Below are positions 1-36,171 of a DNA stretch of 36,171 nucleotides, piece after piece. The DNA is from Gemmobacter lutimaris. GTDB taxonomy: Bacteria > Pseudomonadota > Alphaproteobacteria > Rhodobacterales > Rhodobacteraceae. Position 1 is the stretch's first letter. Each line of letters opens with the position of its first letter. Below the pieces are notes generated by a model that had not been told where the DNA came from, did no database searches, and saw only the letters and a list, made by a program, of their open reading frames with translations. The position numbers and the translations under genes were made by a program. The stretch lies in contig NZ_QXXQ01000024.1 of the NCBI RefSeq assembly GCF_003570715.1, forward strand, positions 1 to 36,171, given 5' to 3'.

Positions 1-127
1 CGCACCGGCCCACGAACCCACCACCACCATCCGCCATACAAGACCTCCATCTGCTCACGAAGGCCTTCTCGCAGGCGGGTCACGCGTCAGGAATATATCA
101 AATCAATGGGCCCGAACCGCCGCATAC
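1..127. mobile_element. End of an IS66-like insertion element inside hsdR
   Basis: These bases separate the 3' part of hsdR from the window edge. Read on the minus strand from 127, the end begins GTATGCGGCGG and continues to CCCATTGATTT. It matches the element end at 36046 at 21 of the first 28 positions. IS66-family elements are known to start with GTAAGCG-like repeats and to make 8-bp target duplications, and both are seen here. No transposase could be recognised in these 127 bases. Either the rest of the element lies outside the window, or the two ends join directly into a 253-bp non-autonomous copy. Confidence 0.75.
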
Positions 128-8221: not shown

Positions 8222-8446
8222 ATGGCTGAATATCACAACATCGACGCGATCGCGGACCGCTTCCAGCGCAACCCTCGGACGGTCAGGGACTGGATCACCC
8301 GGGGCTGCAAAACCCCGGATGGTACGATCCGGCTTCAGGCTGCGAAGCTGGGAAAGAGCTGGGTCGTGAAGAAGGAGTGGCTGGACTTCTTCGAATTCCA
8401 GATCAAGCCGCGCCCGGTGCTGGAAGAGTTGGACCTTGATGAATAA
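8222..8446 (+). CDS. Small helix-turn-helix protein, excisionase-like, upstream of tandem recombinases
   Basis: A 74-residue protein carrying a winged HTH of the MerR/excisionase type: IDAIADRFQRNPRTVRDWI, then GTIRLQAAKLGKSWVVKKEWLDFF. Its stop lies inside the start of the first recombinase (overlap 8439-8446), so the three genes at 8222-11733 form one translational unit. Small HTH proteins beside tyrosine recombinases usually bend DNA to set recombination direction or repress the operon. That role is inferred here from position. Confidence 0.72.
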   Translation: MAEYHNIDAIADRFQRNPRTVRDWITRGCKTPDGTIRLQAAKLGKSWVVKKEWLDFFEFQIKPRPVLEELDLDE

Positions 8447-12942: not shown

Positions 12943-14163
12943 TCAGGACCTAGCTGTTCTTCCCCACACCTGAAATATTTCTGCTTCGATCTCCGCCGTG
13001 ATTTGGCGGATCGACTCGATCGCCCGGTCATAGGTCTTCCGATTGGTCCCGCGGGGCTCCACCTCTAACAGGGTCTGCTTAGCGGCGGTCGCGTCCATGA
13101 TCGCGGTCGACTCGACAAACTCGGTCGTCATGACGGAGTCCCCAAGCGCGGTCCGCAGGAAGCCGGCCGCCTGAACCTGGGGCTTGTCCGTCGCCTTGTA
13201 ACGGGTGATGAGGTGCTTCACGAAATCGAACCCGTGCTCCGGCGCGTGCCCCTCGACCACCTCCATCAGGTTCCCAGCCATGGACAGGAAGCTGGTGAGC
13301 GACATCACATCCAGCATGGACGCGTTGAGCGGGATTAGGACTCCGCGTGAAGCGAAGAGGGCCGCGGCCACTACAAGGCCGAGCTGCGGCGGGGCGTCGA
13401 AGATGATGACATCATAGTCCGGCAGGATCGGCTCGAGCGCGTTCGCGATCCGGGTGTGGAATGCGCCGGCCGTGCTCGGGGTCCGGGAGGAGAGGGCTGT
13501 CTCGTATTCGAACTCCATGAGGCTCATCGAGGCAGGGATCAGGTCGAGGTTCGGGAAAAAGGTCTTCTGGATCACGTCCCGGGCCGGCACCGGCTCCATA
13601 TGCCGGATCACGTCATAGGCGGTCGGCATGTCCGGGTCGAGTTCAGGCGTGACCCCGAACATGTTCGTGATGCTCGCTTGGGGATCGAGGTCGCCAAAGA
13701 GTACCCGGTACCCCAACAGGGACAGGTTGGCCGCGACGTGGGCAGACAGGACGGACGTGCCGGAGCCCTTTCGGACGGTAAGGAAGGTTATCGCCACGCA
13801 GGGTTCGTCTCTCCGCCGTCGCGGGTGGACTTTCGGGTCGATCTTCTTCGCCTCGAACAGGCCCCGCTGGATCTCGTGGACCTCCTCGGCGGTGAAGTAG
13901 CGCCGGTTGTTCTTATCCATCTCCCCGGTCGGGAGCCTATCCCGCAGGGTGGAGATGTAGTGCCGGAACGTGTTCTGGTTGATCCGCAGGAAGTCGGCCG
14001 CCTCGCGCATCGCGAACTTGCGCAGGGTCTTGCGCGTGTGCGGCAGTGGGATCTCAACGCCATGCCCCTTAAGCTGACCGACCACCCGATCCGAGACCGC
14101 CTGAAAATTTCGGCACCCTTTGCGGGCGCGCATCCGAGTTTTATTGTCAATCCTGCCTGTCAT
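12943..14163 (-). CDS. ParA/RepA-like protein with an altered P-loop
   Basis: The 406-residue protein has an N-terminal HTH region (LRKFAMREAADFLRINQNTF, about 47-66) like RepA/ParA proteins of repABC plasmids, followed by a ParA-type ATPase fold. The usual KGGxGKTT loop reads RKGSGTSV (131-138), so the ATP-gripping lysine is replaced by Thr136. The later motifs are preserved: DLDPQAS (158-164) and the Walker B text IIFDAPPQLG. No repB or repC follows. It overlaps the preceding gene by ATGA. It may bind nucleotide without hydrolysing it, or act as a regulator. The plasmid's working ParA is more likely the one at 28105. Confidence 0.75.
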   Translation of the reverse strand: MTGRIDNKTRMRARKGCRNFQAVSDRVVGQLKGHGVEIPLPHTRKTLRKFAMREAADFLRINQNTFRHYISTLRDRLPTGEMDKNNRRYFTAEEVHEIQRGLFEAKKIDPKVHPRRRRDEPCVAITFLTVRKGSGTSVLSAHVAANLSLLGYRVLFGDLDPQASITNMFGVTPELDPDMPTAYDVIRHMEPVPARDVIQKTFFPNLDLIPASMSLMEFEYETALSSRTPSTAGAFHTRIANALEPILPDYDVIIFDAPPQLGLVVAAALFASRGVLIPLNASMLDVMSLTSFLSMAGNLMEVVEGHAPEHGFDFVKHLITRYKATDKPQVQAAGFLRTALGDSVMTTEFVESTAIMDATAAKQTLLEVEPRGTNRKTYDRAIESIRQITAEIEAEIFQVWGRTARS

Positions 14164-14690
14164 CAGTGCAGCCGATCATCGAACCGGATCGGCTCGACCG
14201 CCGGCGAGACAACTCCGTCGGCCTGCATTTTGTACAGGGTCTCCGGCGCATGCTCGCTGAGCAAATAGTAGCGATTCCATGTCCTGGCCCAGGTGAGATC
14301 AGGAGATAGCTGCATAAGGACCGAGGTGCGTGTTCTGGCGCCCCACCTCAGCAGCGGATGCCCGGTTGATTGTCCGAGCAAAAAGGGTGTTGTGTGCAGC
14401 CTCACGGCGCACCACTGGTGCAGGACCGGTGCCCGGTCCAGCTCTTCCTGCGAGGGCGCCGTGGAACTCAGGTTCCCCACACGGTTCAGGAAACGGCGCA
14501 CCTTGCCCGCCAGATCCTCCGGATGGTCATCTGCGTAGAGGTCGTCCCGGTCGTCGTCGTACAAATTTTTGAAAACGGATGTGAACTGCGCGATGGTCTG
14601 TTCCGGGTGTGCCGGATCAAAGAGCGCGCGCAGGACTTCGAGCTCGTCCCACAGTGGCCGGTAGGGATCTAGGAAATCATCAAAATCCAT
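14163..14690 (-). CDS. Unrecognised 175-aa protein in the nucleotidyltransferase-ParA operon
   Basis: The start is set at the ATG at 14690, 10 nt after the upstream gene ends. The protein is acidic in its first half (LYDDDRDDLYADDHPEDLAG) and Trp/Arg rich in its second half (LLRWGARTRTSVLM, LTWARTWNRYYLLSEHA). It has no signal peptide or membrane segment and no family I can name. Its stop overlaps the ParA-like start (ATGA). Tight coupling on both sides suggests it acts in the same complex or pathway as the HEPN-nucleotidyltransferase and ParA-like proteins. Confidence 0.6.
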   Translation of the reverse strand: MDFDDFLDPYRPLWDELEVLRALFDPAHPEQTIAQFTSVFKNLYDDDRDDLYADDHPEDLAGKVRRFLNRVGNLSSTAPSQEELDRAPVLHQWCAVRLHTTPFLLGQSTGHPLLRWGARTRTSVLMQLSPDLTWARTWNRYYLLSEHAPETLYKMQADGVVSPAVEPIRFDDRLH

Positions 14691-14700
14691 CGGGCATCTC

Positions 14701-15606
14701 TCAATCTTCGTGGGTTTTCGGGTTTCTGGTGGCCGCGATGAGGTCGCGCAGCGGCACAATCTGGCCGTCCCGGATCATCTTGAGGCGGTCTAGAAAGTCA
14801 CCGCTGTAGAGGTCCGGAAAGTGCAGATCGACCTCGACCCCCTCTTCCCGCGCGATCTCCTCGGCTGCGTCCCATAGCTCCCGCTGCACCTCGCGTGACA
14901 CCTCTCCCGGTACGAGCAGGTCAAGGTCAGATCTTGGATGGACCCGGTTTTCCACGAGGGAGCCGAACGGAACGACTGTGTGCCCTCGGTCGTGGAAGGC
15001 CTCCTCGATGCCGCTTAGCGCGCGCTGGAGGGCTCGTTCCCGGGCCCTGGCGCGCTCCATCCGACCCGCATGCTGCGCAGCGAACGCCGGGTCGGGTGCT
15101 TGCCCGTTTCTGAGGGTCCCGCCGGTGATCCAGACGTCGAGCGCTGTAAGAGCGTCGATCAGCAGCGGCGCAACCCTAAGAGCTGCCGCATGACGCCGCC
15201 GCTGAACCTCAAGGTTCTCGTCCAGTTCAAAGATCGGATCGAAGTCCGGATCTGCCGCGACTTCTCTCAGCAAGTCGGCCAGATCTGGCGGCAGGACCGG
15301 TCTCCGGCCCGAACCGGACCCGGTGAGCTGGCGCAGGGCATCCTCGTACCAGCCGTCATCATGGTCCGGCACGCTTCCGTCTATGACCAGACATAGCGTC
15401 GTTACGATCGCCTCGCAGTTGCGCAGCACGCCGTTCAAACCCCTGAACAGGGCGACACGTGCGAGGCGTTGTTGTATGTTCTCGGACAGCCCACTGGGGA
15501 CCTCTGCTAGAGTTCGGTCCAGATGCGCCAAGCGTTCGGAGAGGCCGTCTAAGCGGAGCTGGATGGGTTGGAGAAGGTCGGACCTGAGGCGGCATTTCGT
15601 TTCCAT
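14701..15606 (-). CDS. Nucleotidyltransferase with a probable N-terminal HEPN-like domain
   Basis: The C-terminal third is an MNT-type nucleotidyltransferase: Gly215-Ser216, ten residues, then Asp227-x-Asp229 (FGSLVENRVHPRSDLDLLV), and a third Asp260 (VEVDLHF). The helical N-terminal part includes RNCEAIVTTLCLVIDG and DDGWYEDALRQL (about 62-94), which resembles HepT-like HEPN proteins, where a GxxWH segment is usual; here it reads GWY. HEPN toxin and MNT antitoxin are normally separate genes (HepT/MntA), with MNT adding AMP to the toxin. A fusion is my inference. The nucleotidyltransferase call is strong, the HEPN call moderate. Confidence 0.7.
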   Translation of the reverse strand: METKCRLRSDLLQPIQLRLDGLSERLAHLDRTLAEVPSGLSENIQQRLARVALFRGLNGVLRNCEAIVTTLCLVIDGSVPDHDDGWYEDALRQLTGSGSGRRPVLPPDLADLLREVAADPDFDPIFELDENLEVQRRRHAAALRVAPLLIDALTALDVWITGGTLRNGQAPDPAFAAQHAGRMERARARERALQRALSGIEEAFHDRGHTVVPFGSLVENRVHPRSDLDLLVPGEVSREVQRELWDAAEEIAREEGVEVDLHFPDLYSGDFLDRLKMIRDGQIVPLRDLIAATRNPKTHED

Positions 15607-15612
15607 CTCAAC

Positions 15613-16458
15613 TCAGTCCGTCTCAAAAAACATGAGCGGCCCCAGTTCCAGGGCATGGGTCCCTAGCTCTTCAGGATATCCCAAGGACACGTTTTTGATC
15701 ACGGTCCGGCCTACGTGCGCACCACACCGCCGGTGCGAGTGCCCGAAAAACCAGGCATCGGGCTGCGTCTCTCGGATCAGGCCATCAAGATTTGAGTGGA
15801 AGGACGGCGTGAGGGCATCAATCACGCCGACCGCAGTCGCCGGACTCGGACCGTGATGAGACACGACCACAGTCCTGCCCTCGTGGCCGGAAAAATGAGG
15901 TTCCCGCAGAGCCGCGGCCAGCCAAGCGCGATGGTCTAGATGTAGCGCCAGCGTGTCTCGTGGTGTGATGGGGCGCGTGTCCTGCCGGTCGTAGGGTAGA
16001 CCAGGCGCAGTCCCGATCCTGATCCGCCTGTAGTCATTCATCACACGCCCGGCCGTTTCCACTGCTTGCCGGACATCACAGGTCAGCAAAAAGTCGGTCC
16101 AGAGCGTGCAACACAGGAGCCGCGTATTCCCGATCCGGACCTCGTCTTTTTGGGCGAAACGTGCGCCGGCGTCCGAGCACAGCTCTCGTAGTACATGATC
16201 ACCGTCGAGCCGGTGCCCGTAATAGCAGTGGTTGCCAGGGATGATGACGATTTTTGCGGGATTGATGAGCCGGCCCAAGCGTTCGAGGATCCCCGGCCAG
16301 TTCCGGACCGGATCATTGGCGAGGTCTCCCGCGATCACCAGCAGATCCGGCCGCCGCTTATGGATGACGATATCCAGCCCAGTGGCCGTCAGAGGATCAA
16401 CGGCCCACCGGGTCCAGCTGTCAAAATGTAGGTCGGATAGCACGGCAATCAGGGGCAT
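15613..16458 (-). CDS. Calcineurin-like metallophosphoesterase
   Basis: The 281-residue protein has the full metal-binding set: Asp9/His11 (LSDLHFDSW), Asp45 (VIAGDLAND), Asn76-His77 (PGNHCYYG), a His pair (VVVSHHGPS) and GHSHRR near residue 233. Enzymes of this family cleave phosphodiesters or phosphomonoesters, including cyclic nucleotides and nucleic acids. The start is the ATG at 16458, with AGGGAG 7 nt upstream. It is the first intact gene of the minus-strand unit, with 6 nt to the next gene. The promoter at 16778-16806 probably drives the unit. Confidence 0.82.
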   Translation of the reverse strand: MPLIAVLSDLHFDSWTRWAVDPLTATGLDIVIHKRRPDLLVIAGDLANDPVRNWPGILERLGRLINPAKIVIIPGNHCYYGHRLDGDHVLRELCSDAGARFAQKDEVRIGNTRLLCCTLWTDFLLTCDVRQAVETAGRVMNDYRRIRIGTAPGLPYDRQDTRPITPRDTLALHLDHRAWLAAALREPHFSGHEGRTVVVSHHGPSPATAVGVIDALTPSFHSNLDGLIRETQPDAWFFGHSHRRCGAHVGRTVIKNVSLGYPEELGTHALELGPLMFFETD

Positions 16459-16472
16459 ACGGGTTCTCCCTG

Positions 16473-16690
16473 TCAGTGCAGAATCTGGGGATCGGCCGCC
16501 CCGAGCCGCTCGAGGATGCGCCGGATCTGTCGCAAGCTGACATGCCCCCGCCCGGCGTCGTCGATGACCGCCTTCCGGGCCAGGCGCATGTGTCCTCGTC
16601 GACTTCCGCGTCGCACTCGCGCAGATAGGACCAGGTACGTCGGGGGAGCCATCTTGCCGTCTTCTCCGCAGGCACGAAGAACCGGCGCAC
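16473..16690 (-). pseudogene. Possible frameshifted small gene ahead of the phosphoesterase operon
   Basis: From a GTG at 16690, one frame reads VRRFFVPAEKTARWLPRR and continues to about 16590. A second frame, offset by one base, continues with ARKAVIDDAGRGHVSLRQIR and ends at a TGA at 16473. Together they would make a basic protein of about 72 residues with a helical end. The join near 16586 needs a one-base shift. Alternatively the ATG at about 16584 starts a 38-residue peptide on its own. No family is recognised; the call rests on the two well-formed frames meeting. Confidence 0.3.
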
Positions 16691-16777
16691 AACATAAGCT
16701 GTGCGGCGTCCAGCGCCGATCTTGATTTATTGAATATCCTCGCTTCAGTGAGGCGTCTGGGCCGTCAGACTGACCGA

Positions 16778-19661: not shown

Positions 19662-20363
19662 ATGGACGATACGGTGGGCACCCTGTCGACGGATTTCGGC
19701 ACGGCCGCGCTTACGGGGGGCAGGCTTCTTTGTATCGGCGATCTGGACGATGCGGCAACGGCGCTGCACCTGTTCGGAGAGGTGGTCCAAACCCTCCACC
19801 TGCTCACTGGGCCGCTCAAGCAGGATGGGAACCTCGGCCCCTCCAGCCCGTGCGACCCGGAGTTGACCCAGCAGTTGGAGCGGTCTGGCTGGATGCGGCT
19901 GGACCCGGGCATCGCCGTCGGCACGGGTGCCGAGGGGGCGCTCGTAGCGGAAAGTGCATGGCAGCGGAATGGGCTGGACCATAACCTGCGGGTTGTCATG
20001 GACCAACGTGACCTAGGCGCGGCACTAGACGGGACGGGCGGGCCGCTTGCGGTCTTCGTCGGTGGTCCCGACAGGTGGCGGGACGAGACCTGGTCGCGCT
20101 GGCCCGGTTTCTACCGCGTGCTGGATCGCCTGATGGACGGCGGGTTGCTTGTCATCCGCGGTGCGGGGACAGCACCGCGCAGCGGAAGGGTCTACCGACG
20201 CCATCGTCCGCTGTTCGACGCGAAGGATTATGCAGCGCTGCATGGGTGGAACGGGTTGATCGGTGTCGAGTTCCGGAACGTCCTCGGGCTGCGCTTCCGC
20301 TGCGTCGACTGCGTGGGGGAGGCGGACAAGCGGCACGTGATCTGGCAGGTGCGCCGGACATGA
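19662..20363 (+). CDS. Unrecognised 233-aa protein coupled to an ADP-ribosylglycohydrolase
   Basis: The start is the ATG at 19662 behind CAGGGAG; the ATG at 19641 has no site. The protein looks like an alpha/beta fold: GGRLLCIGDLDDAATALHLF near the start and FYRVLDRLMDGGLLVIRGAG (about 153-172) later, which recalls the end of a Rossmann-type methyltransferase but lacks a clear cofactor loop. The Cys pair FRCVDC is near the end. Its stop overlaps the next start (ATGA). The coupling suggests a joint function, perhaps an ADP-ribose-related enzyme or target. No family is named. Confidence 0.55.
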   Translation: MDDTVGTLSTDFGTAALTGGRLLCIGDLDDAATALHLFGEVVQTLHLLTGPLKQDGNLGPSSPCDPELTQQLERSGWMRLDPGIAVGTGAEGALVAESAWQRNGLDHNLRVVMDQRDLGAALDGTGGPLAVFVGGPDRWRDETWSRWPGFYRVLDRLMDGGLLVIRGAGTAPRSGRVYRRHRPLFDAKDYAALHGWNGLIGVEFRNVLGLRFRCVDCVGEADKRHVIWQVRRT

Positions 20364-21727
20364 CGCACCCCGACATCGTGTTGTCTGTCGCCTCCGGCGT
20401 CCTGCGAGTTGTCGCGCCCAGCGGGAATGACGGCGCGGCAGCGAACGTATCTACGCTCCGCGTCGCCCTCCGAACCGCCGGTGACGCCAAGGGAGAGAGC
20501 CGGGAGGTCCTGGCCTTGCCTAGATCGCCCACCGAAGACACCTGGGGTTCGGTCGGCCCCCGGGTTCACCGTTGGCTGGAGCAAGGTGGTATCGTCGAGA
20601 TCGAACGGGGGTCCGACCCGAAGGACGCCGTAACCTACGCGGGGCGCGTGCTGCGTGAGCGCGGGCAGAGCCTCGAAGGCCTTGCCTCGGCTGGCGGCGA
20701 CGTGCCCCCATTGCCGGACCCGACCCCACGGGCAGAACGTCTTCGCGCGATGCTTGCTGCTGGGGCTCTCGGCGATGCGATGGGCGCGGAGATCGAGTTC
20801 CTCGACCTTGCGTCGTTGAGGCGACGCCACCCGGACGGCATCCGCCACCTGCCCGCGCACCGGGGCACGACCGGAGCGATCACCGACGATACGCAGATGA
20901 CGCTCTTCACGGCGGAAGGATTGATCCGGTCCGCAGTTCGGCAGGCGCAGCGAGGCATCTGCCATCCCGCGTCAATCATCCATCACGCCTACCTCCGGTG
21001 GCTGGTCACCCAAGGCGTCGCCCCACGGATCGCCATCGATGCGGACGAGATCGGTCTGTTCCGCGACCCGCGGCTACAGGCCCGTCGCGCGCCCGGAAAA
21101 ACCTGCCTGTCCGCCCTCGCCACCGCGCGCAGTTTCGGTATGGCTGCGCGTAACGACAGTAAGGGGTGCGGCGGCGTTATGCGGCTTGCGCCGATGGTTC
21201 TGCTGCCGGGGCGCGCGGTCGAGGTCTCCGGTCTTACGCACGGACACCCTGTCGCAGCCTTGGCGGCGCAAGTCTGGATCGAGCTTCTGTCGGCGGCGTG
21301 GAACGGCACTGACCTGCGGGCAGCGGCCGAGCGCCTGGCCACAGATCAGGACAACCCGGCGACCCGGGCCATCGCCGCCGCCCTTGCGCTGCCGGGGGAC
21401 CGGCAACCCGAAACGGTGGAGCGGCTGGGCGGCGGCTGGGTGGCGGAGGAGGCGGTCGCCATCGCGCTCTACGCCGCGCTCCACGCGAGGGATCTGGACG
21501 AGGGCCTTCAGACGGCGCTGCTGCACTCGGGCGACAGTGACAGCACGGCGGCGATGGCGGGTAACCTGCTGGGGCTGCTGTTCCCTGACCAAGTGTTCAC
21601 GCATCCGCTTCAGGCGATGGTCGAATGCACGGACCTGATCGACCGGCTCGCGCGGGATCTGGATGCAGCCTTTACGGCAGAGGGCGTGGCGGACCCGGCG
21701 CTGTTCCGGCGCTATCCCGGGGTGTAA
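20360..21727 (+). CDS. ADP-ribosylglycohydrolase (DraG-type) with a 125-aa N-terminal extension
   Basis: The 455-residue product contains the DraG/ARH fold from about residue 125. LAAGALGDAMGAEIEF and ITDDTQMTL (174-182) form the first metal site, and HSGDSDSTAAMAGNLLG (389-405) the second. These enzymes remove ADP-ribose from modified proteins or nucleic acids using two metals. The N-terminal 125 residues are not part of the enzyme and match nothing I know. It overlaps the preceding gene by 4 nt. Reversal of an ADP-ribosyl modification, for example in a toxin or anti-phage system, is plausible but inferred. Confidence 0.85.
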   Translation: MTHPDIVLSVASGVLRVVAPSGNDGAAANVSTLRVALRTAGDAKGESREVLALPRSPTEDTWGSVGPRVHRWLEQGGIVEIERGSDPKDAVTYAGRVLRERGQSLEGLASAGGDVPPLPDPTPRAERLRAMLAAGALGDAMGAEIEFLDLASLRRRHPDGIRHLPAHRGTTGAITDDTQMTLFTAEGLIRSAVRQAQRGICHPASIIHHAYLRWLVTQGVAPRIAIDADEIGLFRDPRLQARRAPGKTCLSALATARSFGMAARNDSKGCGGVMRLAPMVLLPGRAVEVSGLTHGHPVAALAAQVWIELLSAAWNGTDLRAAAERLATDQDNPATRAIAAALALPGDRQPETVERLGGGWVAEEAVAIALYAALHARDLDEGLQTALLHSGDSDSTAAMAGNLLGLLFPDQVFTHPLQAMVECTDLIDRLARDLDAAFTAEGVADPALFRRYPGV

Positions 21728-21797
21728 AGCACTTGTGCCGGCCGTGTCAGGTGCGAAGGAAATGCGCTATTCTGGCGCTGAGATTCAGGAAAGAAAC

Positions 21798-22025
21798 ATG
21801 GAACACAAGGATTTCGAACTGACCGACCTGGAGCTGGCGAAGATCAATCAGATCCTCCGGGGGATCGCGCGGAGCGACTACGCTTCTGAGGGTGAGCCCG
21901 TCAGCGACCTGACCGTCACCTTCGCGTTCGCAGTCCCGCTGGGCCGCATGATCTCGGTTTCCGTCTCGGGCTCGCCCGCCGTTGATCTGGACGATGTGGT
22001 GCTCGACCCCGCGGAACCCGGCTGA
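21798..22025 (+). CDS. Hypothetical 75-aa protein
   Basis: The ATG at 21798 has AGGAAAGAAAC just upstream. The product has a helical start (FELTDLELAKINQILRGIAR) and a beta-like second half (LTVTFAFAVPLGRMISVSVS). It has no known motif. It ends 40 nt before a convergent small gene and lies 70 nt after the ADP-ribosylglycohydrolase gene, possibly on the same transcript. Confidence 0.55.
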   Translation: MEHKDFELTDLELAKINQILRGIARSDYASEGEPVSDLTVTFAFAVPLGRMISVSVSGSPAVDLDDVVLDPAEPG

Positions 22026-22065
22026 CAAGCCGTCGGGATCCGCGGTGGTTCAGGAACTGGTCAGG

Positions 22066-22314
22066 TCAGGCTGGGTCGCGGCGCAGATCGAGGCGGGCCC
22101 GCCCCTGCGCGAAGTCGATTGTCATCTTCGTGACGACGCAGGGATGCTCGTCGACCGTCAGCATCCGGTCACCACGCACCACAACGCCCAGAAGGTATTC
22201 CAGTGAGACCTGACGCACCTGGACGGCGGGTACCCCTGCAAGTCGGACGGACAGCAGCACATTTTCCGCGGGATCGAGTGATGCCGGAAGAAGAAGATAC
22301 TCTGGTACGTTCAT
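22066..22314 (-). CDS. Hypothetical 82-aa protein
   Basis: The start is chosen at the ATG at 22314, because AAAGGAG lies 6 nt upstream; a GTG two codons earlier is too close to that site. The product is mostly beta-like (EYLLLPASLDPAENVLLSVR, QVSLEYLLGVVVRGDRML) with an acidic/basic end. No family or motif is recognised. It is convergent with the gene at 21798. Confidence 0.5.
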   Translation of the reverse strand: MNVPEYLLLPASLDPAENVLLSVRLAGVPAVQVRQVSLEYLLGVVVRGDRMLTVDEHPCVVTKMTIDFAQGRARLDLRRDPA

Positions 22315-22511
22315 TTCCACTCCTTTGTGTCGAAACTCTATCTTACGGATAGACCTGCTGGTCCTTTTGGAAATTCGGGAATTGGCGCTTGTTTTCCGGA
22401 TCTTACGCGGCTTGATTGATTACCGAAATTCTAGGCGAACGACACACGAATTATTTTTCGCCGGAGGCGGCGGCAAGTTCCTGTGATGGGAATGGGCGGA
22501 TCGAGGGGACC

Positions 22512-23237
22512 ATGGCAGTATCTGCGCATCTTCGGGGACACGGCACCCCGATCAATGTCGAGAACTGGCGCCGCTACGCCACGTCTCCCGCGTTCCAGGC
22601 CACCTTCCCGATGATACTCGAGGTTGCCTACCGCCCAGGGTGTAACCCGCGTTCGGACCACGTCCTCACCCGGGGCGACGTCGAAGCATTCTTCCGCCGC
22701 TCCCACGCCGCCGGGATCCATGCGACGATGGTCTGGGGCTATCCCCGCGGGCGGTTTCCCGGCGGGCGGGGGTTCGCGCGGATTTTCGACCGAGCGGAAG
22801 CGATTGGTATTCTGCTGGAAACGGCGCGCGCTGAAAGGCTTCCCGCGGACCGGATCTGCGAGATGTTTTCCTCTCTGGCGGATGCCGAAGGCCAGCCGAT
22901 CGGCATGGGGCCATCCACCTTCACGAAGCTGCTCTACTTCGCGGGCGTCACAGCCGAGGAGGGTAGCTGCCTGATCTACGACCAGCGCGTCATGCGGGCG
23001 ATCACAGGCGGCTCCGTGCCGCTTCCTGATGACATCTGGACCGAAACCCGTCGGCTGCTCGGCCCGCCGGTCCGGCACGTACCGCAAGGCCGACACTGCG
23101 CCAGCTACGGTCCCTTCCTCAAGGCCGCGGAGGACCACGGGAGCCGCCACGGCAAGACCGCCGACGACGTGGAGTTGTGGCTGTTCGAGAATGCTCCCGG
23201 CGCCAGGCCCAGCTATACCATAATTGACGACGTATGA
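22512..23237 (+). CDS. OGG-fold protein related to 8-oxoguanine DNA glycosylase
   Basis: The start is set at the ATG at 22512 behind GAGGGGACC; the open frame extends further upstream without a site. The 241-residue protein has the segments FTKLLYFAGVT (Lys139) and LIYDQRVMRAI, which resemble the region around the catalytic Lys and Asp in OGG-fold proteins found in actinobacteria and proteobacteria. Its activity as a glycosylase is unproven; this subgroup is usually annotated only by fold. It stands alone, with about 200 bp of gene-free DNA on each side, so a DNA repair or defence role is open. Confidence 0.6.
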   Translation: MAVSAHLRGHGTPINVENWRRYATSPAFQATFPMILEVAYRPGCNPRSDHVLTRGDVEAFFRRSHAAGIHATMVWGYPRGRFPGGRGFARIFDRAEAIGILLETARAERLPADRICEMFSSLADAEGQPIGMGPSTFTKLLYFAGVTAEEGSCLIYDQRVMRAITGGSVPLPDDIWTETRRLLGPPVRHVPQGRHCASYGPFLKAAEDHGSRHGKTADDVELWLFENAPGARPSYTIIDDV

Positions 23238-23458
23238 AGGGTCGGCACGCCGGAACGCGGTGGTCGCAGGGTACGGCGGGCGGTGGAACGTCAGTATAGC
23301 TGGTGGTCAGTCACGACAAAACTTCTGGTTACTATCAGCCGGTCAAAAATGGTCGTTTCTGACCGGACCGCCCTGCCCTACCGGATTTCAACAGGTTGAC
23401 CGGGACAGAAACCCAATGACGAAACCAGTTGGGTTTACAGACACGCAAGCGTCATGAA

Positions 23459-24778
23459 TCACACACCCCGGTTGGCAGCGTTCCTCTCTCGGATATCCAC
23501 CTCCGTGACCCCGTACAGGAAGGCGGAGGCGGGAGAGGCCCGATCCGCCGTATCGGTGAGGATCTCGGCCATCTTGTCCCTGTCAGCTTCGTTCAGGTCC
23601 CCAAAAACCTCATCGACCAAGCCTGGGATCCCCGCGTCCGGTGTCCTGTCGCGAAACAGCCGCCCCAACGCCTCCGCGATACGGCCCCGTTCACGCAGCT
23701 CCAACCCATGCGGAACCCGCTGGACGGTCACCGCCTGGATGTAGTCCGGCGCCGTCATCTCATAGGACCCGGCGATCGCCTCCCCGAGAAGACCGGTCGC
23801 GCCGACCTCATAGAACTCGATCAGCCCGAGGATGTAGGGGGTCTTGTCGATCCCGATGAAGGAGAGCGGGGGCAGACCCGCCCGGAGCAGCGGCTCGTTC
23901 GAGAGGAGCCGACCCATCCGCTTGTTCCCGTCCCCGAAGGCTTGCAGGTAGGAGAGGCCCGCGAGCAGGAGGAACGACGCCTCGAACGGGTCCTCGACCT
24001 GACCGGCCTTGGCGAGAAGGTCGCTGAGGCCGGCCGTGAGCAGAACATAGTCTGAGGAGGGGCGGTAGCTGGTCGCAGAGATCTGCACCGCGCCCCTGCG
24101 GACGCTGCCGAGGTCGGCCGGGTCCAGCAGATCCCGCATCATGAGGACGTGTCGGCGCTGAACGGACCCGGCGTCCGGGAATGCGCCATCGAGTCCCTCC
24201 ATCATCAGGGAGATGGCCGCCTTGTGGTTGAGGATCATCGCCGTCTCCAACCGGTCCCGGCCGGAGGCGCTTTCACCGTACTTGATCAGCATCTCCGTCG
24301 AGAGATGATCATAGGTGTTCCCCTCCAGGTTCGAGGACGCCCACGATAGGTCGATCAGAAATCTCTCCGCGATCGCCCTGCTGTATGTGGAGGCATCAAG
24401 TCGCTGTCCCCCGGCCTGTTCCACGGCGTCCCGCATCCGGGCGGCTGCCTCCTCAGGGAGCCAACGTGTCTGGTTCGGCACATAGCCGCCGATCCGGCCG
24501 GGGTCGTAGGGGATCGGAGTGCGCCGCCTGGGATCCGTCGCCACGCGTCGCGCGTCCTGCGTGAGCGAGAAGCGGGCACCCCGGGTCTCCCCCTCCTTGA
24601 GGAGAAGGCCCCGGTTGATCAGCCCGGACATCACCCGGGACATCGTCGCCTGACTGGGGGCGTCGCGCATGCGGGACATCAGCTCGCGCTGGCTGACCGG
24701 GCCAGCGGCACGTAGCAGGGCTTCGATAACCGCACGCTCCTGCGGGGTCAGATCTCGGATCTCGAGGATGGCATGCAT
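23459..24778 (-). CDS. Fic-domain protein with N-terminal winged helix; Gln replaces the catalytic His
   Basis: The 439-residue protein begins with a winged-helix region (about 1-70, including RELMSRMRDAPSQATMSRVM). An inhibitory-helix motif of the S-x-x-x-E-G type (SSNLEG, near 149) precedes the Fic core, as in class II Fic proteins. The core motif reads QAFGDGNKRMGR instead of HxFxxGNGR, so Gln279 sits where the AMP-transferring His is expected. Fic proteins with Gln here are known in bacteria and may not AMPylate. The ATG is followed upstream by an AT-rich promoter-like region (24785-24815). It is a single gene. Confidence 0.8.
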   Translation of the reverse strand: MHAILEIRDLTPQERAVIEALLRAAGPVSQRELMSRMRDAPSQATMSRVMSGLINRGLLLKEGETRGARFSLTQDARRVATDPRRRTPIPYDPGRIGGYVPNQTRWLPEEAAARMRDAVEQAGGQRLDASTYSRAIAERFLIDLSWASSNLEGNTYDHLSTEMLIKYGESASGRDRLETAMILNHKAAISLMMEGLDGAFPDAGSVQRRHVLMMRDLLDPADLGSVRRGAVQISATSYRPSSDYVLLTAGLSDLLAKAGQVEDPFEASFLLLAGLSYLQAFGDGNKRMGRLLSNEPLLRAGLPPLSFIGIDKTPYILGLIEFYEVGATGLLGEAIAGSYEMTAPDYIQAVTVQRVPHGLELRERGRIAEALGRLFRDRTPDAGIPGLVDEVFGDLNEADRDKMAEILTDTADRASPASAFLYGVTEVDIRERNAANRGV

Positions 24779-28104: not shown

Positions 28105-28791
28105 TTATTTCACCTCCGCCGACGCCTGAGCGGCCTTGAGGCGAGCGAGAACCTCCCTCGCGAAAGCCCTGGCGTTCTCAACCGCCTTGTCGAGATTGCT
28201 GACCTGGTCCCGGTCCAAGTCTTCAAGCAAACCGCCGTAGTCCAAGATGTCCCGATAAGCTGCCCGCTCAACGATCGACGTTTCAAAAACCGGGATACCC
28301 GCTTGGTCTAGCTGATCTCGCACGTTCCGGAGCGACCGGGACGCCACGGCTGCGCTGGTCCGGGTCAGGAGAACCGCATGCGCGATCTCCCGTCGTGCCA
28401 TGCGGGCCTGGTTCCGAATGAGGCGGATCGTCTTCGCAGCTCCCTTGGCGTCCATCGAGGCTCCCTGTGTGGGTATAATTACCAGATCGGACATGCCGAT
28501 CGCGTTAGCCACCATGAGACTCGCCGTCCCCTCCAGATCAACGACGACAAACTGAGCCTCGGCGGCGGCGGCCTCGATCTGATCGACGATCGAGTCCTCA
28601 GTCACATCACTGGTGATCGTGACGTTGGCTGGCCGGCCCGGAAGCGCGCCCCATTGCGAAATCCACTTCTCTGGATCCGCGTCAATGATCGCCACAGTTG
28701 CGCAGCGGGCGGCCAGCTCAGATGCAAGCAAGAGCGCAGAGGTGGTCTTGCCTGCGCCCCCTTTTGGAGTCGCGAAAACTATGACCGGCAT
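28105..28791 (-). CDS. parA: ParA-family partition ATPase
   Basis: The 228-residue protein has a standard deviant Walker A motif (PKGGAGKTT, 9-17), the second motif IIDADPEKWISQW and a Walker B region (QFVVVDLEGTAS). It is a short ParA without an N-terminal HTH, so autoregulation would fall to the small partner. The start is the ATG at 28791; GAGG lies 9 nt upstream. It moves plasmid copies apart by ATP-dependent binding to the nucleoid. Unlike the protein at 12943, its P-loop lysine is intact. Confidence 0.88.
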   Translation of the reverse strand: MPVIVFATPKGGAGKTTSALLLASELAARCATVAIIDADPEKWISQWGALPGRPANVTITSDVTEDSIVDQIEAAAAEAQFVVVDLEGTASLMVANAIGMSDLVIIPTQGASMDAKGAAKTIRLIRNQARMARREIAHAVLLTRTSAAVASRSLRNVRDQLDQAGIPVFETSIVERAAYRDILDYGGLLEDLDRDQVSNLDKAVENARAFAREVLARLKAAQASAEVK

Positions 28792-28832
28792 GAGCAATCC
28801 CTCTTCAAGAGTTCTGAATCCCCATCGTATAC

Positions 28833-29146: not shown

Positions 29147-30037
29147 ATGAAGCAGGATCAGGACACAACACTTAAGGTTTTTGACCTGAAACCGCGTCGG
29201 GATCAGGCGGTGAAGCCTGCTGAGCTGATCCAGATCACGGGCCACCAGGCGCTGACTCTCAACGCCCGCCGCTCAATCACTATCCTCTGGCACAACGCCC
29301 ACATGCAGGGGGTGGCGGAGGGGAGGGACTACACGATCGAGATCGACGATCTGAAACCCGACAATCACAAGGGTTATGAGCAGGTTGAAGAGGCGATCGA
29401 AGCGCTGATGACGAGCATCCTCAAGGTCCGTCTGCCTGACGGACGGACCCGCCGGGTGCAGTTTCTCGGGGGGAACGACCTGGATGACCCGGAGAGACCA
29501 GCTGGGGTCCTGAGCTACAGCTTCGACAAGCGGCTCGTCGAAATCCTTCGAGACTCTGCCATCTGGGGGAAGATATCCCTCCCGGTCTTGATGGCGTTCA
29601 GCTCAAAATACAGCGTCAGCCTCTATGAGCACATTAGCCAGTGGACCGGACTGAGCAGAAAAAGCTATCAGGATCTGACGCTTGAGGAGTTTCGGGACCT
29701 TTTGGGCGTAGAAGAAGGGAAGTACGCCGCGTTCGGCGCCCTGAACAAGCATGTCATCAAGCAGACGGTCATGGAGTTGAACGCGTTGGCGTCTTTCAGC
29801 GTGACGATCGTTCCGGTGAAGACGGGCAAGAGGGTCACACACATCAGGGTCGGATGGTGGCAGAAGGAGAAGGACGAGCTGGACGCAGCATGGCGTGAGG
29901 TCCACCGTTCGAAGGTCGGCAGAAAGGCCAGGATCGCAGGAACAGCGACCACAGTGACAGACCCATATCCAAGCCAGAACCGGCTCGCGCGGAAGGGCAG
30001 GGGGGAAGTCACTCAGCTGATCGACGAGAGCGAGTAA
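29147..30037 (+). CDS. Plasmid replication initiator, Rep_3 family
   Basis: The 296-residue protein has the two winged-helix halves typical of Rep_3 (RepA/RepB-type) initiators. ELIQITGHQALTLNARRSIT and LPDGRTRRVQFLG fall in the first half. LVEILRDSAIWGKISLPVLM, YSVSLYEHISQW and DLTLEEFRDLLGVEEGKYA fall in the second. It would bind the flanking iterons as a monomer to melt the origin. The leader before the ATG has only a weak ribosome binding site. The inverted repeats in front of the gene fit dimer-based autorepression. Confidence 0.88.
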   Translation: MKQDQDTTLKVFDLKPRRDQAVKPAELIQITGHQALTLNARRSITILWHNAHMQGVAEGRDYTIEIDDLKPDNHKGYEQVEEAIEALMTSILKVRLPDGRTRRVQFLGGNDLDDPERPAGVLSYSFDKRLVEILRDSAIWGKISLPVLMAFSSKYSVSLYEHISQWTGLSRKSYQDLTLEEFRDLLGVEEGKYAAFGALNKHVIKQTVMELNALASFSVTIVPVKTGKRVTHIRVGWWQKEKDELDAAWREVHRSKVGRKARIAGTATTVTDPYPSQNRLARKGRGEVTQLIDESE

Positions 30038-30411: not shown

Positions 30412-30594
30412 ATGGCTGAGAAAAATCAGGACGAGGATCCGAAGCTCGATGAACTTGTAGCCCTGAACTTCAAGATAACCGAACGGGAACGGCGCGAGTT
30501 CAAGGTATGGTGCGCATCCAGAGGGCTGACCCAGACTGAAGCGTTCAAGATGGGGTTCAAGCTATTGAAATCAAAAGAAGATAAACTCGAATGA
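30412..30594 (+). CDS. Small ribbon-helix-helix-like protein leading the restriction operon
   Basis: The 60-residue product reads ALNFKITERERREFKVWCAS then TQTEAFKMGFKLL, a strand followed by two helices as in ribbon-helix-helix regulators. Its stop overlaps the hsdM start (ATGA). It could control the restriction operon or plasmid copy number; both are inferred from its position between the origin and hsdM. Confidence 0.68.
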   Translation: MAEKNQDEDPKLDELVALNFKITERERREFKVWCASRGLTQTEAFKMGFKLLKSKEDKLE

Positions 30595-32147
30595 CGGACG
30601 AGCAGAAACACAGTCTCGAGAAGGCCCTCTGGGGCATCGCGAATACCCTCCGCGGGAAGATGAACGCGGACGAGTTCCGGGACTACATCCTCGGGTTCAT
30701 CTTCTACAAATACCTGTCCGAGCGGCTCCATCTCTACGCGGACGAAGCGCTGAAGGAGGACGGGATCGTCTTCGCTGACATCGACGAGACCACCCCTGAG
30801 GGCCAGGAGCTCCTGGCCGCGGTCCAGGACGCCAGCACCGAGGCGCTCGGCTACTTCCTGAAGCCGTCCGAGCTGTTCAGCGCGGTCGCTGCGCGCAGCC
30901 GGAAACCCGGGGCCTTCGTACTTCCGGAGCTCGCGACGATCCTGGGGAACATCGAGCGGTCCACCATGGGCACCGCCTCGGAAGAGGACTTCGACCACCT
31001 GTTCGAAGATCTGGACCTCACCTCCACCAAGCTGGGCCGGACCGAGGAGGCGAAGAACGCGCTCATCTCGAAGGTCCTGACCCACCTGGACGGGATCGAC
31101 TTCCGGCTCGCGGACACGGATTCCGACGTGCTCGGGGACGCCTACGAGTACCTGATCGGCATGTTCGCCTCCGGGGCCGGGAAGAAGGCGGGGGAGTTCT
31201 ACACCCCTCAGGCGGTATCGACCGTCCTCGCCCGTATCGTCACGACCGGAAAGGAACGCCTGAGATCCGTCTATGACCCGACCTGCGGGTCCGGGTCGCT
31301 CCTCCTGCGCGTCGCGCGCGAGGTGCGCGAGGTGAGCGACTTCTACGGGCAGGAGATGAACCGGACCACCTACAACCTGGCCCGGATGAACATGATCCTG
31401 CACGGGGTCCACTACCGGAACTTCGACCTGCGCCAGGACGACACGCTCGAGAACCCGATGCACGAGGGGATGACCTTCGAGGCGATCGTGGCGAACCCGC
31501 CTTTCTCGGCGAACTGGTCCGCGAAGGACCTGTTCAAGACCGACGACCGGTTCGCCGATTACGGCCGGCTCCCGCCCGCCTCCAAGGCGGACTACGCCTT
31601 CGTCATGCACATGCTGCACCACCTTGATGACAAGGGGGTGATGGCGGTGGTCCTGCCGCACGGTGCCCTGTTCCGGGGCGGGGCGGAGGGGGTGATCCGG
31701 GAATACATCATCCGCGAGAAGAACTGGCTCGACGCGGTGATCGGGCTGCCCGCGAACATCTTCTACGGGACCGGCATCCCCACCTGCATCATGGTGTTCA
31801 AGAAGTGCCGTGAGACGGAGGAGGTCCTGTTTGTTGACGCTTCCACCGAGTTCGTGCGCGGGAAGAACCAGAACTGGCTCGATGAGCCGAACATCGACCG
31901 GATCGTGAACGGGTTCCGGGACCGGGTCGAGACCCCTCGGTTCAGCCACCTCACCACCCGCGAGGAGATCGCGGCGAACGACTACAACCTGAACATCCCG
32001 CGCTACGTGGACACTTATGAGGCCGAGCAGGCCGTGGACATGAAGGCGGTGACCAAAAACCTGACCGCACTCGATCAGGGCATGGCCGAGATTGACGCGA
32101 ATATCAGGAAGGTCTGCGCCCAGCTGGGGCTGGAGGCCCCCGTATGA
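30591..32147 (+). CDS. hsdM: Type I restriction-modification methylase subunit M
   Basis: The 518-residue protein has an N-terminal helical domain and an N6-adenine methyltransferase domain. EFYTPQAVSTVLARI is near 202. DPTCGSGSLLL (about 229-239) binds S-adenosylmethionine. NPPFSANWS (about 302-310) is the catalytic NPPF. It methylates adenines at the target chosen by HsdS and is intact. The start overlaps the small gene before it, and its end overlaps hsdS by 4 nt. Confidence 0.92.
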   Translation: MTDEQKHSLEKALWGIANTLRGKMNADEFRDYILGFIFYKYLSERLHLYADEALKEDGIVFADIDETTPEGQELLAAVQDASTEALGYFLKPSELFSAVAARSRKPGAFVLPELATILGNIERSTMGTASEEDFDHLFEDLDLTSTKLGRTEEAKNALISKVLTHLDGIDFRLADTDSDVLGDAYEYLIGMFASGAGKKAGEFYTPQAVSTVLARIVTTGKERLRSVYDPTCGSGSLLLRVAREVREVSDFYGQEMNRTTYNLARMNMILHGVHYRNFDLRQDDTLENPMHEGMTFEAIVANPPFSANWSAKDLFKTDDRFADYGRLPPASKADYAFVMHMLHHLDDKGVMAVVLPHGALFRGGAEGVIREYIIREKNWLDAVIGLPANIFYGTGIPTCIMVFKKCRETEEVLFVDASTEFVRGKNQNWLDEPNIDRIVNGFRDRVETPRFSHLTTREEIAANDYNLNIPRYVDTYEAEQAVDMKAVTKNLTALDQGMAEIDANIRKVCAQLGLEAPV

Positions 32148-33310
32148 GCGCGCCGGAGATCCGCTTTCCAGAGTTCAAGGAGCCTTGGCGGCCGACCGTC
32201 GCGGGGGCCGCGTTCAAGCACAGCCGCGCACGCGGCAAGGCGGGCCTTCCCATCTATTCCGTGACACTCGACCGGGGGATGGTCCCGCGCGACAGCCTCG
32301 ACCGTCACATGGAGTCGGACGCTGCGGACGGCCAGAACCTCCGGGCTCAGCCGGGTGATGTCGTCTACAACATGATGCGGATGTGGCAGGGGGCCGTCGG
32401 CGTGGCTCCTGAGGAGTGCATGGTCAGCCCGGCCTACGTCGTTCTCAGGCCCAACAAGGAGACGAACCCGCAGTTCTTCAACTACTGGTTCCAGACCTCG
32501 CGCATGCTGCACAAGCTGCGCTCCTACTCTCACGGCCTGACGATGGATCGTCTGCGCCTTTACCCGGACGATTTCGCGAAGATCCCGCTGCACCTTCCCA
32601 GCCGGGCGGAACAGGACAGGATTGCGGCGTTCTTCGAGGATATCGACGCCAAACTGGCCGCCCTGCGGGAGAAGGCGGACGGGCTGCGCCAGTTCAAGGC
32701 GGGCCTGATGCAGCGGCTTTTCTCGCTGCAGCTGCGGTTCACGCGCGAGGACGGGTCGGACTTTCCGGAATGGGAGGAAAAGAGGCTGGTGGATATCACC
32801 GCCGTGAATCCACCGAATGAGGTTTTCCCTGATGTTTTCTGGTACGTTGATTTGGAGAGTGTCAACGCCGGACGCTTGAGTGATCCCAAGAGAATGGAAC
32901 GAATAAATGCGCCTAGCCGAGCCCAACGGGTTTTGAAAGCAGGAGACGTGCTCTTCCAGCTTGTGCGACCGTATCAAAAGAACAACCTCCTGTTTCAGGA
33001 GGATGGTGATTACGTTGCCTCAACCGGCTATGCGCAACTTCGGGCCCGAAATAGTAATTCTTTTGTTTTTCACCTGCTGCATACTGAAAAGTTTGTCAGG
33101 GATGTGTTGGAACGATGTACGGGTACCGGGTACCCGGCAATTACTCCAGTAGAACTCGGGAAAATCACAGTCGCTGTTCCCTGCCCGGATGAGCAAGAAA
33201 GGATCGCCTCCGCCCTCGACGCCCTCGACGCCAAAATCGACGCCGTGGTGGACCAAATCGCCCACATGGAGACCTTCAAGAAGGGGCTCCTCCAAAAGAT
33301 GTTTGTGTAA
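32144..33310 (+). CDS. hsdS: Type I restriction-modification specificity subunit S
   Basis: The 388-residue protein has two target-recognition halves separated by conserved helices. The first helix segment is EQDRIAAFFEDIDAKLAALR (about 161-180) with a following FKAGLMQRLF. The matching second is EQERIASALDALDAKIDAVV near the end, followed by FKKGLLQKMFV. The second recognition domain (about 32800-33170) is clearly more AT-rich than the rest of the gene, as expected after domain exchange. It sets the DNA target of HsdM. The target sequence cannot be read from the protein. Confidence 0.9.
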   Translation: MSAPEIRFPEFKEPWRPTVAGAAFKHSRARGKAGLPIYSVTLDRGMVPRDSLDRHMESDAADGQNLRAQPGDVVYNMMRMWQGAVGVAPEECMVSPAYVVLRPNKETNPQFFNYWFQTSRMLHKLRSYSHGLTMDRLRLYPDDFAKIPLHLPSRAEQDRIAAFFEDIDAKLAALREKADGLRQFKAGLMQRLFSLQLRFTREDGSDFPEWEEKRLVDITAVNPPNEVFPDVFWYVDLESVNAGRLSDPKRMERINAPSRAQRVLKAGDVLFQLVRPYQKNNLLFQEDGDYVASTGYAQLRARNSNSFVFHLLHTEKFVRDVLERCTGTGYPAITPVELGKITVAVPCPDEQERIASALDALDAKIDAVVDQIAHMETFKKGLLQKMFV

Positions 33311-33313: not shown

Positions 33314-34024
33314 ATGAAATTTACCGAAAACCAGCCCTCCCTCGAGCAGCTTCAGACCCGGATCGAAACCTGGATCGTTGAAACCTTCGACCGGCCCCCT
33401 GAAGCAACAGAGGTTGATATCGGGGTGGTTGATCATCCCGTCGAATTCGCGATCCGGATGCAGGCCTCCCCATCCGAGGCCTGTGATCTTTGGTCACGGC
33501 TGATCCGCCATGCCTGGATCCACCACTCCGTATGGGACGGGGAGGTTCTTCAACTGAAGGAAGTTGGGCGTGAATACCCTCAGGATTTCGACACTTTTAA
33601 TCCCGATGGGGGACCAAAGGCACGGGGGTCGATCTTTCTTCTCTGGCCCCGTTTCATGGGTCACAAGGTCCATCTTTGCCTGTTCGACGGGCTCAACCCG
33701 AGAGGCGGGTTCGTTCTTGAGCGTCCGGACCCCGAGGGGCAGGCCATTCTCGACCAGATCGGGCAAGCGTCCATTCACCGTATCCTCAGGTCCATCCGGC
33801 AGGGGGATCGGTCCTGGCCCAACCCCTGGCTTGAGGCGCTTTGCCATGAGGGACCGCTGACCGAAGAGCAGGCGTTTGAGATGAGGTCAACGATGCATCA
33901 CTCCGATGCGGAACGTCTCATCCGCATGATCCGGATGGTTGAAACGGGCTCGTGGGAGCGTGATCACATTGACCCGGATTACGTTCGGGAGAAGCTGAAG
34001 CTGCTTGATGAGTACCGCCCGTAA
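33314..34024 (+). CDS. Unrecognised gene between hsdS and hsdR
   Basis: The 236-residue product starts 4 nt after hsdS and its stop overlaps the hsdR start by 1 nt, so it is part of the restriction operon. It is soluble and rich in Trp (WSRLIRHAWIHHSVWDGEVL, SIFLLWPRFMGHKVHLCLFD), with a helical C-terminal half (DAERLIRMIRMVETGSWERD). I know of no common type I accessory gene like this. It might modulate the nuclease, protect the host, or be unrelated cargo. Confidence 0.6.
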   Translation: MKFTENQPSLEQLQTRIETWIVETFDRPPEATEVDIGVVDHPVEFAIRMQASPSEACDLWSRLIRHAWIHHSVWDGEVLQLKEVGREYPQDFDTFNPDGGPKARGSIFLLWPRFMGHKVHLCLFDGLNPRGGFVLERPDPEGQAILDQIGQASIHRILRSIRQGDRSWPNPWLEALCHEGPLTEEQAFEMRSTMHHSDAERLIRMIRMVETGSWERDHIDPDYVREKLKLLDEYRP

Positions 34025-36045
34025 TGTCCGTCCAGTCCGAAGCTCAGCTTGAAACCGAACTGGTGACCCGTCTCCAGGGGCTCGGCTGGGCCCCGGTCCG
34101 GCTCCCGGACGAGGGGTCCCTCACCGCCAACCTGCGCGCGCAGCTCGAGGCCCATAACGGCATCACCATGACGGACGCGGAGTTCGCACGGGTCCTGAAC
34201 CATCTTGACAAGGGGGGCGTGTTCGACCGGGCCGAGACCCTGCGGGGGAGGTTCCGGCTGGACCGGGACGAGGGGGATCCGGTCTGGATCGAGTTCCTGA
34301 ACACGGAGCATTGGTGCCGGAACCGGTACCAGGTGGCGACCCAGATCGGGATCGAGGGGCGCCGAAAGAACCGCTACGACGTGACCCTCCTGATCAACGG
34401 GATCCCGCTCTGTCAGGTGGAGCTGAAGCGCCGCGGGGTCGAGCTGAAGGCGGCGTTCCACCAGATCAACCGGTACCAGCGCGACAGCTTCCGGGCCGCA
34501 CGGGGCCTGTTCCAGTACGTCCAGGTCTTCGTGATCTCGAACGGGGTGAACACCCGGTACTACGCGAATAACCGACACCAGTCCTTCAAGCAGACCTTCA
34601 CCTGGGCGACCCCGGACAACACGCCGATGAACCGGCTGGGGGACTTCGCGGACGCGTTCCTGGAGAAGTGCCACCTCTCCAAGATGATCTCGAAATACGT
34701 GGTCCTGCACCAGAGCGACAAGCTCCTGATGGTGCTGCGCCCCTACCAGTATTACGCGGCCGAGCGGATCCAGGAGCGGGTCGAGCAGGGCAGGAAGAAC
34801 GGGTACATCTGGCACACGACCGGGTCCGGGAAGACCCTCACCTCCTTCAAGGCGGCGCAGAACCTGATCGCGCTGCCGAAGGTGGACAAGGTGGTCTTCG
34901 TCGTCGACCGGGCCGACCTCGACTACCAGACCACCAAGGAGTTCAACCATTTTCAGCCCGGCTCCGTGGACGGGACGGACAACACCCGCCAGCTGGTGAC
35001 TCAGCTCGCGGACCAGAACACCAAGCTGGTGATCACCACGATCCAGAAGCTGAACACGGCGATCTCCCGGGACCTCTACGGGCCCCGGCTCGAGCACCTG
35101 AGGCGGGGCCGGGCCGTCTTCATCTTCGACGAGTGCCACCGGTCCCAGTTCGGCGACACCCATCGCCGGATCCGGGCCTTCTTCGAACGCTGTCAGATGT
35201 TCGGATTCACCGGGACCCCGATCCTCAAGGAGAACGCGATCGGGAAGCGAACCACGAAGGACCTGTTCGACGAGCGGCTGCACGACTACGTCATCACGGA
35301 CGCGATCCGGGACGAGAACGTGCTGCGCTTCTCTGTCGAGTATCTCGGCCAGACCAGCGCCCCGGTCACGCCCACGGGCGACGAGAAGGCGGACCGGAAG
35401 GCGCAGGCGGAGCGGGACCGCGCGCTCGAGTCCCGCGCCTTCTACGATCACCCGGACCGGATGAGCCGGGTCGTGGACTGGATCATTGAGAACCATGACC
35501 GGAAGACCCGAGGCCGCCAGTTCGGGGCGGTCTTCGCGGTCAGCTCCGTGGACGCGCTCTGCGCCTATTACGACCTCCTGGAGGCGAAGCGGCTGGCCGG
35601 CCAGCATGACCTGAAGATCGCGACCATCTTCACCTACGCGGCGAACGAGGAGGACCCGGACGCGGACGGGCTGATCCCGGACACGGAGTTCCCCGCAGAT
35701 AACGGGGGCGGAGACAACCCGAAACGCGACAAGCTGACGGGCTACGTGGCGGACTATAATGCCCTCTACGGGGTCAACGAGTCCGTCCGGGACGGGAAGG
35801 GGTTCTATTCCTACTATCGGGCGCTCGCGAAGCGGATGAAGGCGCGGGACCGGAAGGATTTCACCCCGGACCAGGGGATCGATATCCTCTTGGTCGTGAA
35901 CATGTTCCTGACCGGGTTCGACGCAAAGACCCTGAACACCCTCTACGTGGACAAGAACCTCCGGTACCACGGGCTGATCCAGGCCTTCTCCCGGACCAAC
36001 CGGACCCTCGGCCAGGTGAAGTCCCAGGGGAATATCGTTTGTTTC
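34024..36045 (+). pseudogene. hsdR: 5' part of type I restriction endonuclease subunit R, interrupted at codon 674
   Basis: This part holds the nuclease and most of the motor. YDVTLLINGIPLCQVELKR (about 118-136) carries the PD-(D/E)xK-type residues. Walker A is TTGSGKT (265-271), and the DEAD-type box is DECH (369-372). Further helicase text includes GFTGTPI and, near the break, LIQAFSRTNRTLGQ. At 36045 an IS66-like end begins, and the frame continues open to the window edge, encoding unrelated residues. The remainder of the gene is at 136-1020. Loss of the C-terminal third should block assembly of the restriction complex. Confidence 0.9.
36038..36045. repeat. Target-site duplication of the IS66-like element (right copy)
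   Basis: TTTGTTTC is identical to 128-135 and directly precedes the element end at 36046. Eight bases is the duplication length known for IS66-family elements. Confidence 0.85.
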
Positions 36046-36171
36046 GTAAGCGACGGCCACGCCCCATTGATTTCGCGCTTGCGCGGTGGGGCGAGTGGAG
36101 AGAGCGGAGGTCGGTTGGTAGCTCGTCAGGGACTACGAGACGAGGTCCCTATGCACCCCGGCCCTGCTGGG
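36046..36171. mobile_element. Other end of the IS66-like insertion element
   Basis: The end begins GTAAGCGACGG and carries CCCATTGATTT at positions 18-28, matching the opposite end at 100-127 (21 of 28). GTAAGCG starts are characteristic of IS66-family elements. The 126 bases include the inverted pair CGCGCTTGCGCG region near 36073 but no recognisable transposase start. Whether a full tnpABC set lies beyond the window cannot be told. Confidence 0.75.

Follow-up and report, generated by a model that had tools for sequence, protein, structure and literature searches.

A copy of an insertion sequence (IS) of the IS66 family interrupts the hsdR gene of a type I restriction-modification (RM) system in Gemmobacter lutimaris, and the two parts of this gene are located at the opposite ends of a single contig. 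The window, i.e., the whole stretch of 36,171 nucleotides that was analyzed, is the entire contig C17 (G000:C17:1-36171) of a draft genome comprising 4,658,422 bases in 76 contigs. It is very likely that a full-length IS66-family element resides in hsdR of a circular Rep3-type plasmid and that this circle measures ~38.6 kb; restriction by the plasmid system is expected to be lost, which would leave a modification-only system. As an IS insertion the event is ordinary, as is the class of plasmid gene that it affects, and the understanding of IS66 elements and type I restriction is left unchanged; the contig is closed by the analysis as a likely plasmid, and its break is accounted for.

Sequence was readable for contigs of at least 3 kb, and shorter contigs were known by their length alone. 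Among the 86 readable contig ends, 17 end-to-end joins were found on the basis of exact overlaps of at least 20 bases, and in all 17 cases the overlap was exactly 127 bases. The assembly therefore represents a k=127 graph in which contigs end at repeats, and the window, too, terminates at a repeat.

Two parts of hsdR separated by an IS66-family element

The features at the two ends of the window are as follows.

34024-36045, plus strand: 5′ part of hsdR, 674 codons, with the HSDR_N nuclease, helicase domain 1, and most of helicase domain 2 (Pfam HSDR_N, SWI2_SNF2, T1R_D3-like)
36038-36045, no strand: left 8-bp target duplication TTTGTTTC, the final bases of the hsdR 5′ part
36046-36171, minus strand: IS66-family element, left end; tnpC is oriented toward 36046, with its stop at 36149-36151 (from translation)
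1-127, minus strand: IS66-family element, right end; tnpA begins at ~37 and runs beyond the start of the contig
128-135, no strand: right 8-bp target duplication TTTGTTTC
136-1020, plus strand: 3′ part of hsdR, 294 codons plus the stop codon TGA at 1018-1020, with the remainder of helicase domain 2 followed by the C-terminal helical/assembly domain (Pfam EcoR124_C, 1.8e-59)

Both hsdR halves adjoin the IS ends, and the gene is interrupted after codon 674. The sequence-only reading had described 674 N-terminal codons ending at 36045 and 294 C-terminal codons beginning at 136, with the same 8 bp on both sides followed by inverted ends matching at 21 of 28 positions, and the coordinates bear this out, TTTGTTTC being present at 36038-36045 and at 128-135. 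Its assignment of the split to an IS66-like element also held when the ends were matched to full-length relatives of the IS66 family. The span 36038-36171 given there comprises the left duplication together with the IS left end; the IS itself starts at 36046. In a simple composition model, the chance of the matching 8-mer TTTGTTTC is ~2e-5 and that of a 21/28 match of the inverted ends is ~1e-7.

The two hsdR halves were compared separately with plasmid records, of which 2331 and 346 matched, and the best 15 rows for each half were considered. In all 12 plasmid records common to both best-15 lists, the regions matching the N and C halves are adjacent and share exactly 6 bp, as an insertion with an 8-bp duplication requires. 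The overlap corresponds to two codons (Cys-Phe) that are repeated by the target duplication. These records come from S. meliloti, Sulfitobacter, Arcobacter (three, which are copies of one plasmid with the same coordinates), Thauera, Persicobacter (two), Wohlfahrtiimonas, and Pseudoalteromonas (three). Six rows present in one list only (H8, H9, H13, H23, H28, and H29) were left out of the count. Against the PADLOC profile REase_I (976 positions), the N half extends to position 666 and the C half begins at 665. In the alignment with HsdR of EcoR124I, the N half covers residues 29-705 and residue 2 of the C piece is placed at 705. HsdR with its C-terminal domain is encoded in interrupted form, the cut corresponding to residue 705 of EcoR124I. 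As a warning for annotation, a gene finder would call two partial HsdR genes at opposite ends of the contig.

Family and probable length of the element

Judged by the sequence of its ends, the element belongs to the IS66 family. It has imperfect terminal inverted repeats of the GTA.GCG type (21/28; the same kind is found in its relatives), a type of end that we take to be a mark of this family, and it is flanked by an 8-bp target duplication (TTTGTTTC on both sides). A search for the IS66 transposase domain PF03050 in the contigs of at least 3 kb of the same genome gave no match, a result that is uninformative about the shorter contigs.

Related ends were found in other genomes. The left end is an 83% match to a sequence in another genome of the genus (G006), where it is preceded by the final part of a transposase frame, and the right end is an 85% match to Roseovarius indicus plasmid pRIdsm_01, in a stretch where the start of a transposase is annotated. 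In the Roseovarius stretch (L010), only the right end was seen, and a Paracoccus stretch (L011) gave a left-end match. The right end was matched in 16 of 394 sampled genomes of the family (own genome included; E value of 0.001 or better), several of these matches being short. Six stretches were examined for full-length relatives, and both ends were paired in at least three of them (L162, L163, and L165); for L164, L166, and L167 the ends were not paired among the matches listed. The nearest full-length relative found, a 2719-bp element in G349, carries both ends, and the ends of the Gemmobacter element, which is known here from its ends alone, are 89% (right) and 81% (left) identical to them. 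Elements of 2708 bp in G393 and 2714 bp in G077 have the same kind of ends, with right ends that are 77% and 73% alike. All three full-length relatives have identical 8-bp flanks. The G349 element, the one relative of the three that was tested, encodes proteins with HTH_Tnp_1, TnpB_IS66, and DDE_Tnp_IS66 domains.

A report on Paracoccus describes the IS66 elements ISPpa7 and ISPpa5a, which have lengths of 2731 and 2829 bp and 8-bp repeats (PMC3281130). The Gemmobacter element resembles these Rhodobacterales elements and those of G349, G393, and G077 in its end motifs, its 8-bp duplication, and the location of the tnpA start and the tnpC stop close to the termini; for ISPpa7 and ISPpa5a, the likeness is one of description (length, repeats) and not of sequence.

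A full IS of ~2.7 kb in hsdR appears likelier than a remnant of 253 bp, because the visible ends hold the tnpA start and the tnpC stop; the interior would lie outside the contig. The alternative is a MITE-like derivative of ~253 bp in which the two ends are joined and the interior is lost. We consider it unlikely, although the IS is visible over just 253 bp, neither hsdR frame meets a stop codon within the IS ends (N frame up to 36171, C frame from position 1), and the assembly contains three contigs of 253 bp, known by length alone. A length of 253 is 2k-1 for k=127 and is frequent among contigs from such graphs. Besides the coding content of the ends, full-length relatives in three genomes argue against a remnant, as do contigs of 2500, 2501, 2743, and 2804 bp (lengths alone) that could contain the interior. 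Between the two sizes proposed previously, about 2.5 kb and 253 bp, the full IS is thus favored, with a predicted length of ~2.7 kb rather than 2.5 kb.

Assembly graph and plasmid backbone

The shared duplication and the exact gene halves indicate that the two flanks were neighbors when the IS landed. C17 most likely represents a circle irrespective of the IS length, and this reading is strongly supported, though not proven. The sequence-only reading had stated that the window is a circular replicon. The identical duplication, the single gene in exact halves, and the Rep3 and ParA genes make this the best reading, but "shows" was too strong a word, as the ends are shared with contigs C1 and C21. 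In addition, no direct overlap of the C17 ends with each other was detected over the 20-300 bp examined, unlike in C5 and C74, where the contig's own end overlaps its own start by 127 bp, as closed replicons look in this assembly.

An identical copy of the IS left end is present at C1:2-127 and an identical copy of the right end at C21:17197-17323, so that C17 (at its end) and C1 (at its start) have the left end in common, and C17 (at its start) and C21 (at its end) the right end. Since the IS ends also border C1 and C21, the graph has more than one solution, and a cointegrate or a mixed population would be possible from the assembly alone. C1 reaches one base deeper into the IS than C17. Such offsets occurred in all six visible groups of at least three converging contig ends, versus 2 of 20 visible pairs, and C1/C17 is one of these two pairs. 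The one-base offset hints at a further IS copy among the contigs below 3 kb.

In a cointegrate, recombination between the IS of the plasmid and an IS copy at another site would have produced the order C1-IS-C17-IS-C21 with C17 within a larger replicon. This arrangement is allowed by the graph (left end C17/C1, right end C17/C21), but we regard it as quite unlikely. With a simple resident copy or after replicative cointegrate formation, equal 8-mers would be expected beside the IS ends of C1 and C21, whereas the 8-mers are unequal, GTTCCACC at C1 and GGTTATCC at C21; the further hidden copy suggested by the C1/C17 offset also speaks against it. A matching 8-mer could have been lost by an adjacent deletion, and the 8-mer argument is therefore not conclusive. 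A pairing of C1 with C21 as flanks of a single ordinary IS copy found no support, as the flanking 8-mers differ. When the other side of the C1 insertion was sought within the genus, 11 of 11 genomes matched (own genome included), but the 10 others only from query position 594 on; the stretch beside the IS is therefore without a match in these genomes.

Genes for replication and partition of a plasmid are present in the window.

29147-30037, plus strand: Rep3 replication initiator (Rep3_N and Rep3_C)
28105-28797, minus strand: ParA/VirC1-type partition ATPase (VirC1, AAA_31)

The initiator is thus accompanied by a partition gene, as in Rep3 plasmids, and the best five plasmid records for the initiator (16-45 kb) were 60-77% identical over 92-97% of the query. 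The Rep3, ParA, and hsdMS genes are consistent with a plasmid of ~38.6 kb. The circular Rep3 plasmid p4 of Pukyongiella litopenaei (41,166 bp) has an initiator with 77% identity and, adjoining it, ParA and a stability gene. In contrast, only ~0.1 kb is common to both (megablast, window 12000-36171), and the 23 kb of p4 that were read carry other cargo. A sister plasmid for an analysis of synteny was not found by megablast of window 12000-36171 against plasmids, which returned pieces of ~0.1-0.2 kb in five records.

In the course of events that we propose for the circular plasmid with a full-length IS, an IS66-family element (tnpA-tnpB-tnpC, ~2.7 kb) would have transposed into hsdR of a ~35.9-kb Rep3-type plasmid with a type I RM system. 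The insertion would have duplicated 8 bp of the target and split HsdR behind residue 674, close to where helicase domain 2 ends. During short-read assembly, the circle would then have been broken at the repeated IS, leaving the two flanks of one insertion as contig ends. The molecule would be a circle of ~38.6 kb, made up of the 36171 bp of the contig and an IS interior of roughly 2.45 kb outside it.

Several other groups of genes were observed on C17. At 3370-6237, a CD-NTase (SMODS; PADLOC Cyclase) stands before a SAVED protein, for which PADLOC gave endonuclease/SAVED_HNH effectors as the best matches, and this CBASS-like pair is located on the same plasmid as hsdR. At 8436-11733, the gene of a 642-aa tyrosine recombinase overlaps that of a 461-aa protein without a Pfam match, possibly forming an integration module. 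Four consecutive minus-strand genes at 12943-16695 encode a ParA-like AAA_31 ATPase, a DUF6634 protein, a protein with a nucleotidyltransferase domain, and a calcineurin-like phosphoesterase. ADP-ribosylglycohydrolase, OGG-like glycosylase, and Fic/DOC-domain proteins are encoded in sequence at 20075-24778.

Expected consequences for restriction and modification

Upstream of the hsdR 5′ part, the following genes of the RM locus are found.

30591-32147, plus strand: hsdM, methyltransferase subunit, open frame (N6_Mtase 4.4e-105, HsdM_N)
32144-33310, plus strand: hsdS, specificity subunit, open frame (Methylase_S; PADLOC Specificity_I)
33314-34024, plus strand: 236-aa ORF between hsdS and hsdR

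The genes hsdM, hsdS, and hsdR of a type I RM system thus occur together, with hsdR in two pieces. The 236-aa ORF at 33314-34024 had no Pfam or PADLOC match at an E value of 0.001. On pSymA of S. meliloti, an "abortive infection family protein" is encoded directly before hsdR. The order hsdM-hsdS-hsdR and an EcoR124I-type HsdR are likewise present on another small Rhodobacterales plasmid, the circular plasmid unnamed2 of Sulfitobacter sp. S223 (25,673 bp), whose HsdR is 57% and 46% identical in the two parts; it differs from the Gemmobacter locus, in which hsdR is interrupted and separated from hsdS by the additional 236-aa ORF.

The N-terminal HsdR piece ends before the final portion of helicase domain 2, and the entire C-terminal domain is missing from it. 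In HsdR of EcoR124I, the C-terminal domain spans residues 729-1038 and presumably binds HsdS-HsdM (PMC2878639). The HsdR variants Y736A and D796A are restriction deficient, although the mutants still assemble (PMC5248579). Because these restriction-deficient point mutants still assembled, the role of the C-terminal domain in assembly is an assumption of the papers. The N-terminal piece encoded on C17 would retain the nuclease and most of the motor parts and would be without the domain thought to contact the methyltransferase. Loss of restriction by the plasmid system is expected from the absence of the C-terminal domain together with the EcoR124I data, and modification by HsdM and HsdS may continue, since both genes are open, which would leave a modification-only system. 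Such a plasmid would provide methylation without cutting, and incoming DNA would no longer be barred by that system.

It is very doubtful that the split HsdR, instead of being null, yields two polypeptides that reassemble as a weakened or switchable restriction subunit. Two polypeptides would be possible because the IS right end offers an in-frame ATG (position 106) from which the hsdR C-terminal part would be read (304 codons), and the frame of the N-terminal part continues open across the visible IS end. An origin of the two pieces from different hsdR copies, e.g., of a duplicated locus, with contig ends that are not neighbors, is highly improbable, since nothing beyond the fragmented assembly favors it, the pieces share the 8-bp duplication and fit a single gene exactly, and the contigs of at least 3 kb contain one other HSDR_N domain, which is 27% identical over 421 columns. 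This second, distant HsdR is encoded by an open frame of 1093 aa on C11; therefore, only the plasmid system would be affected by the loss of restriction, and the cell may still restrict otherwise.

A further group of defense-like genes was noted beside the copy of the IS right end on C21 (L087, 357-17323). The IS right end is located there ~336 bp upstream of four large genes in a run, whose best PADLOC matches are DrmD, a type IIG REase-MTase, DruE, and NERD+UvrD/GajB, so that a large defense-like operon lies beside the same IS.
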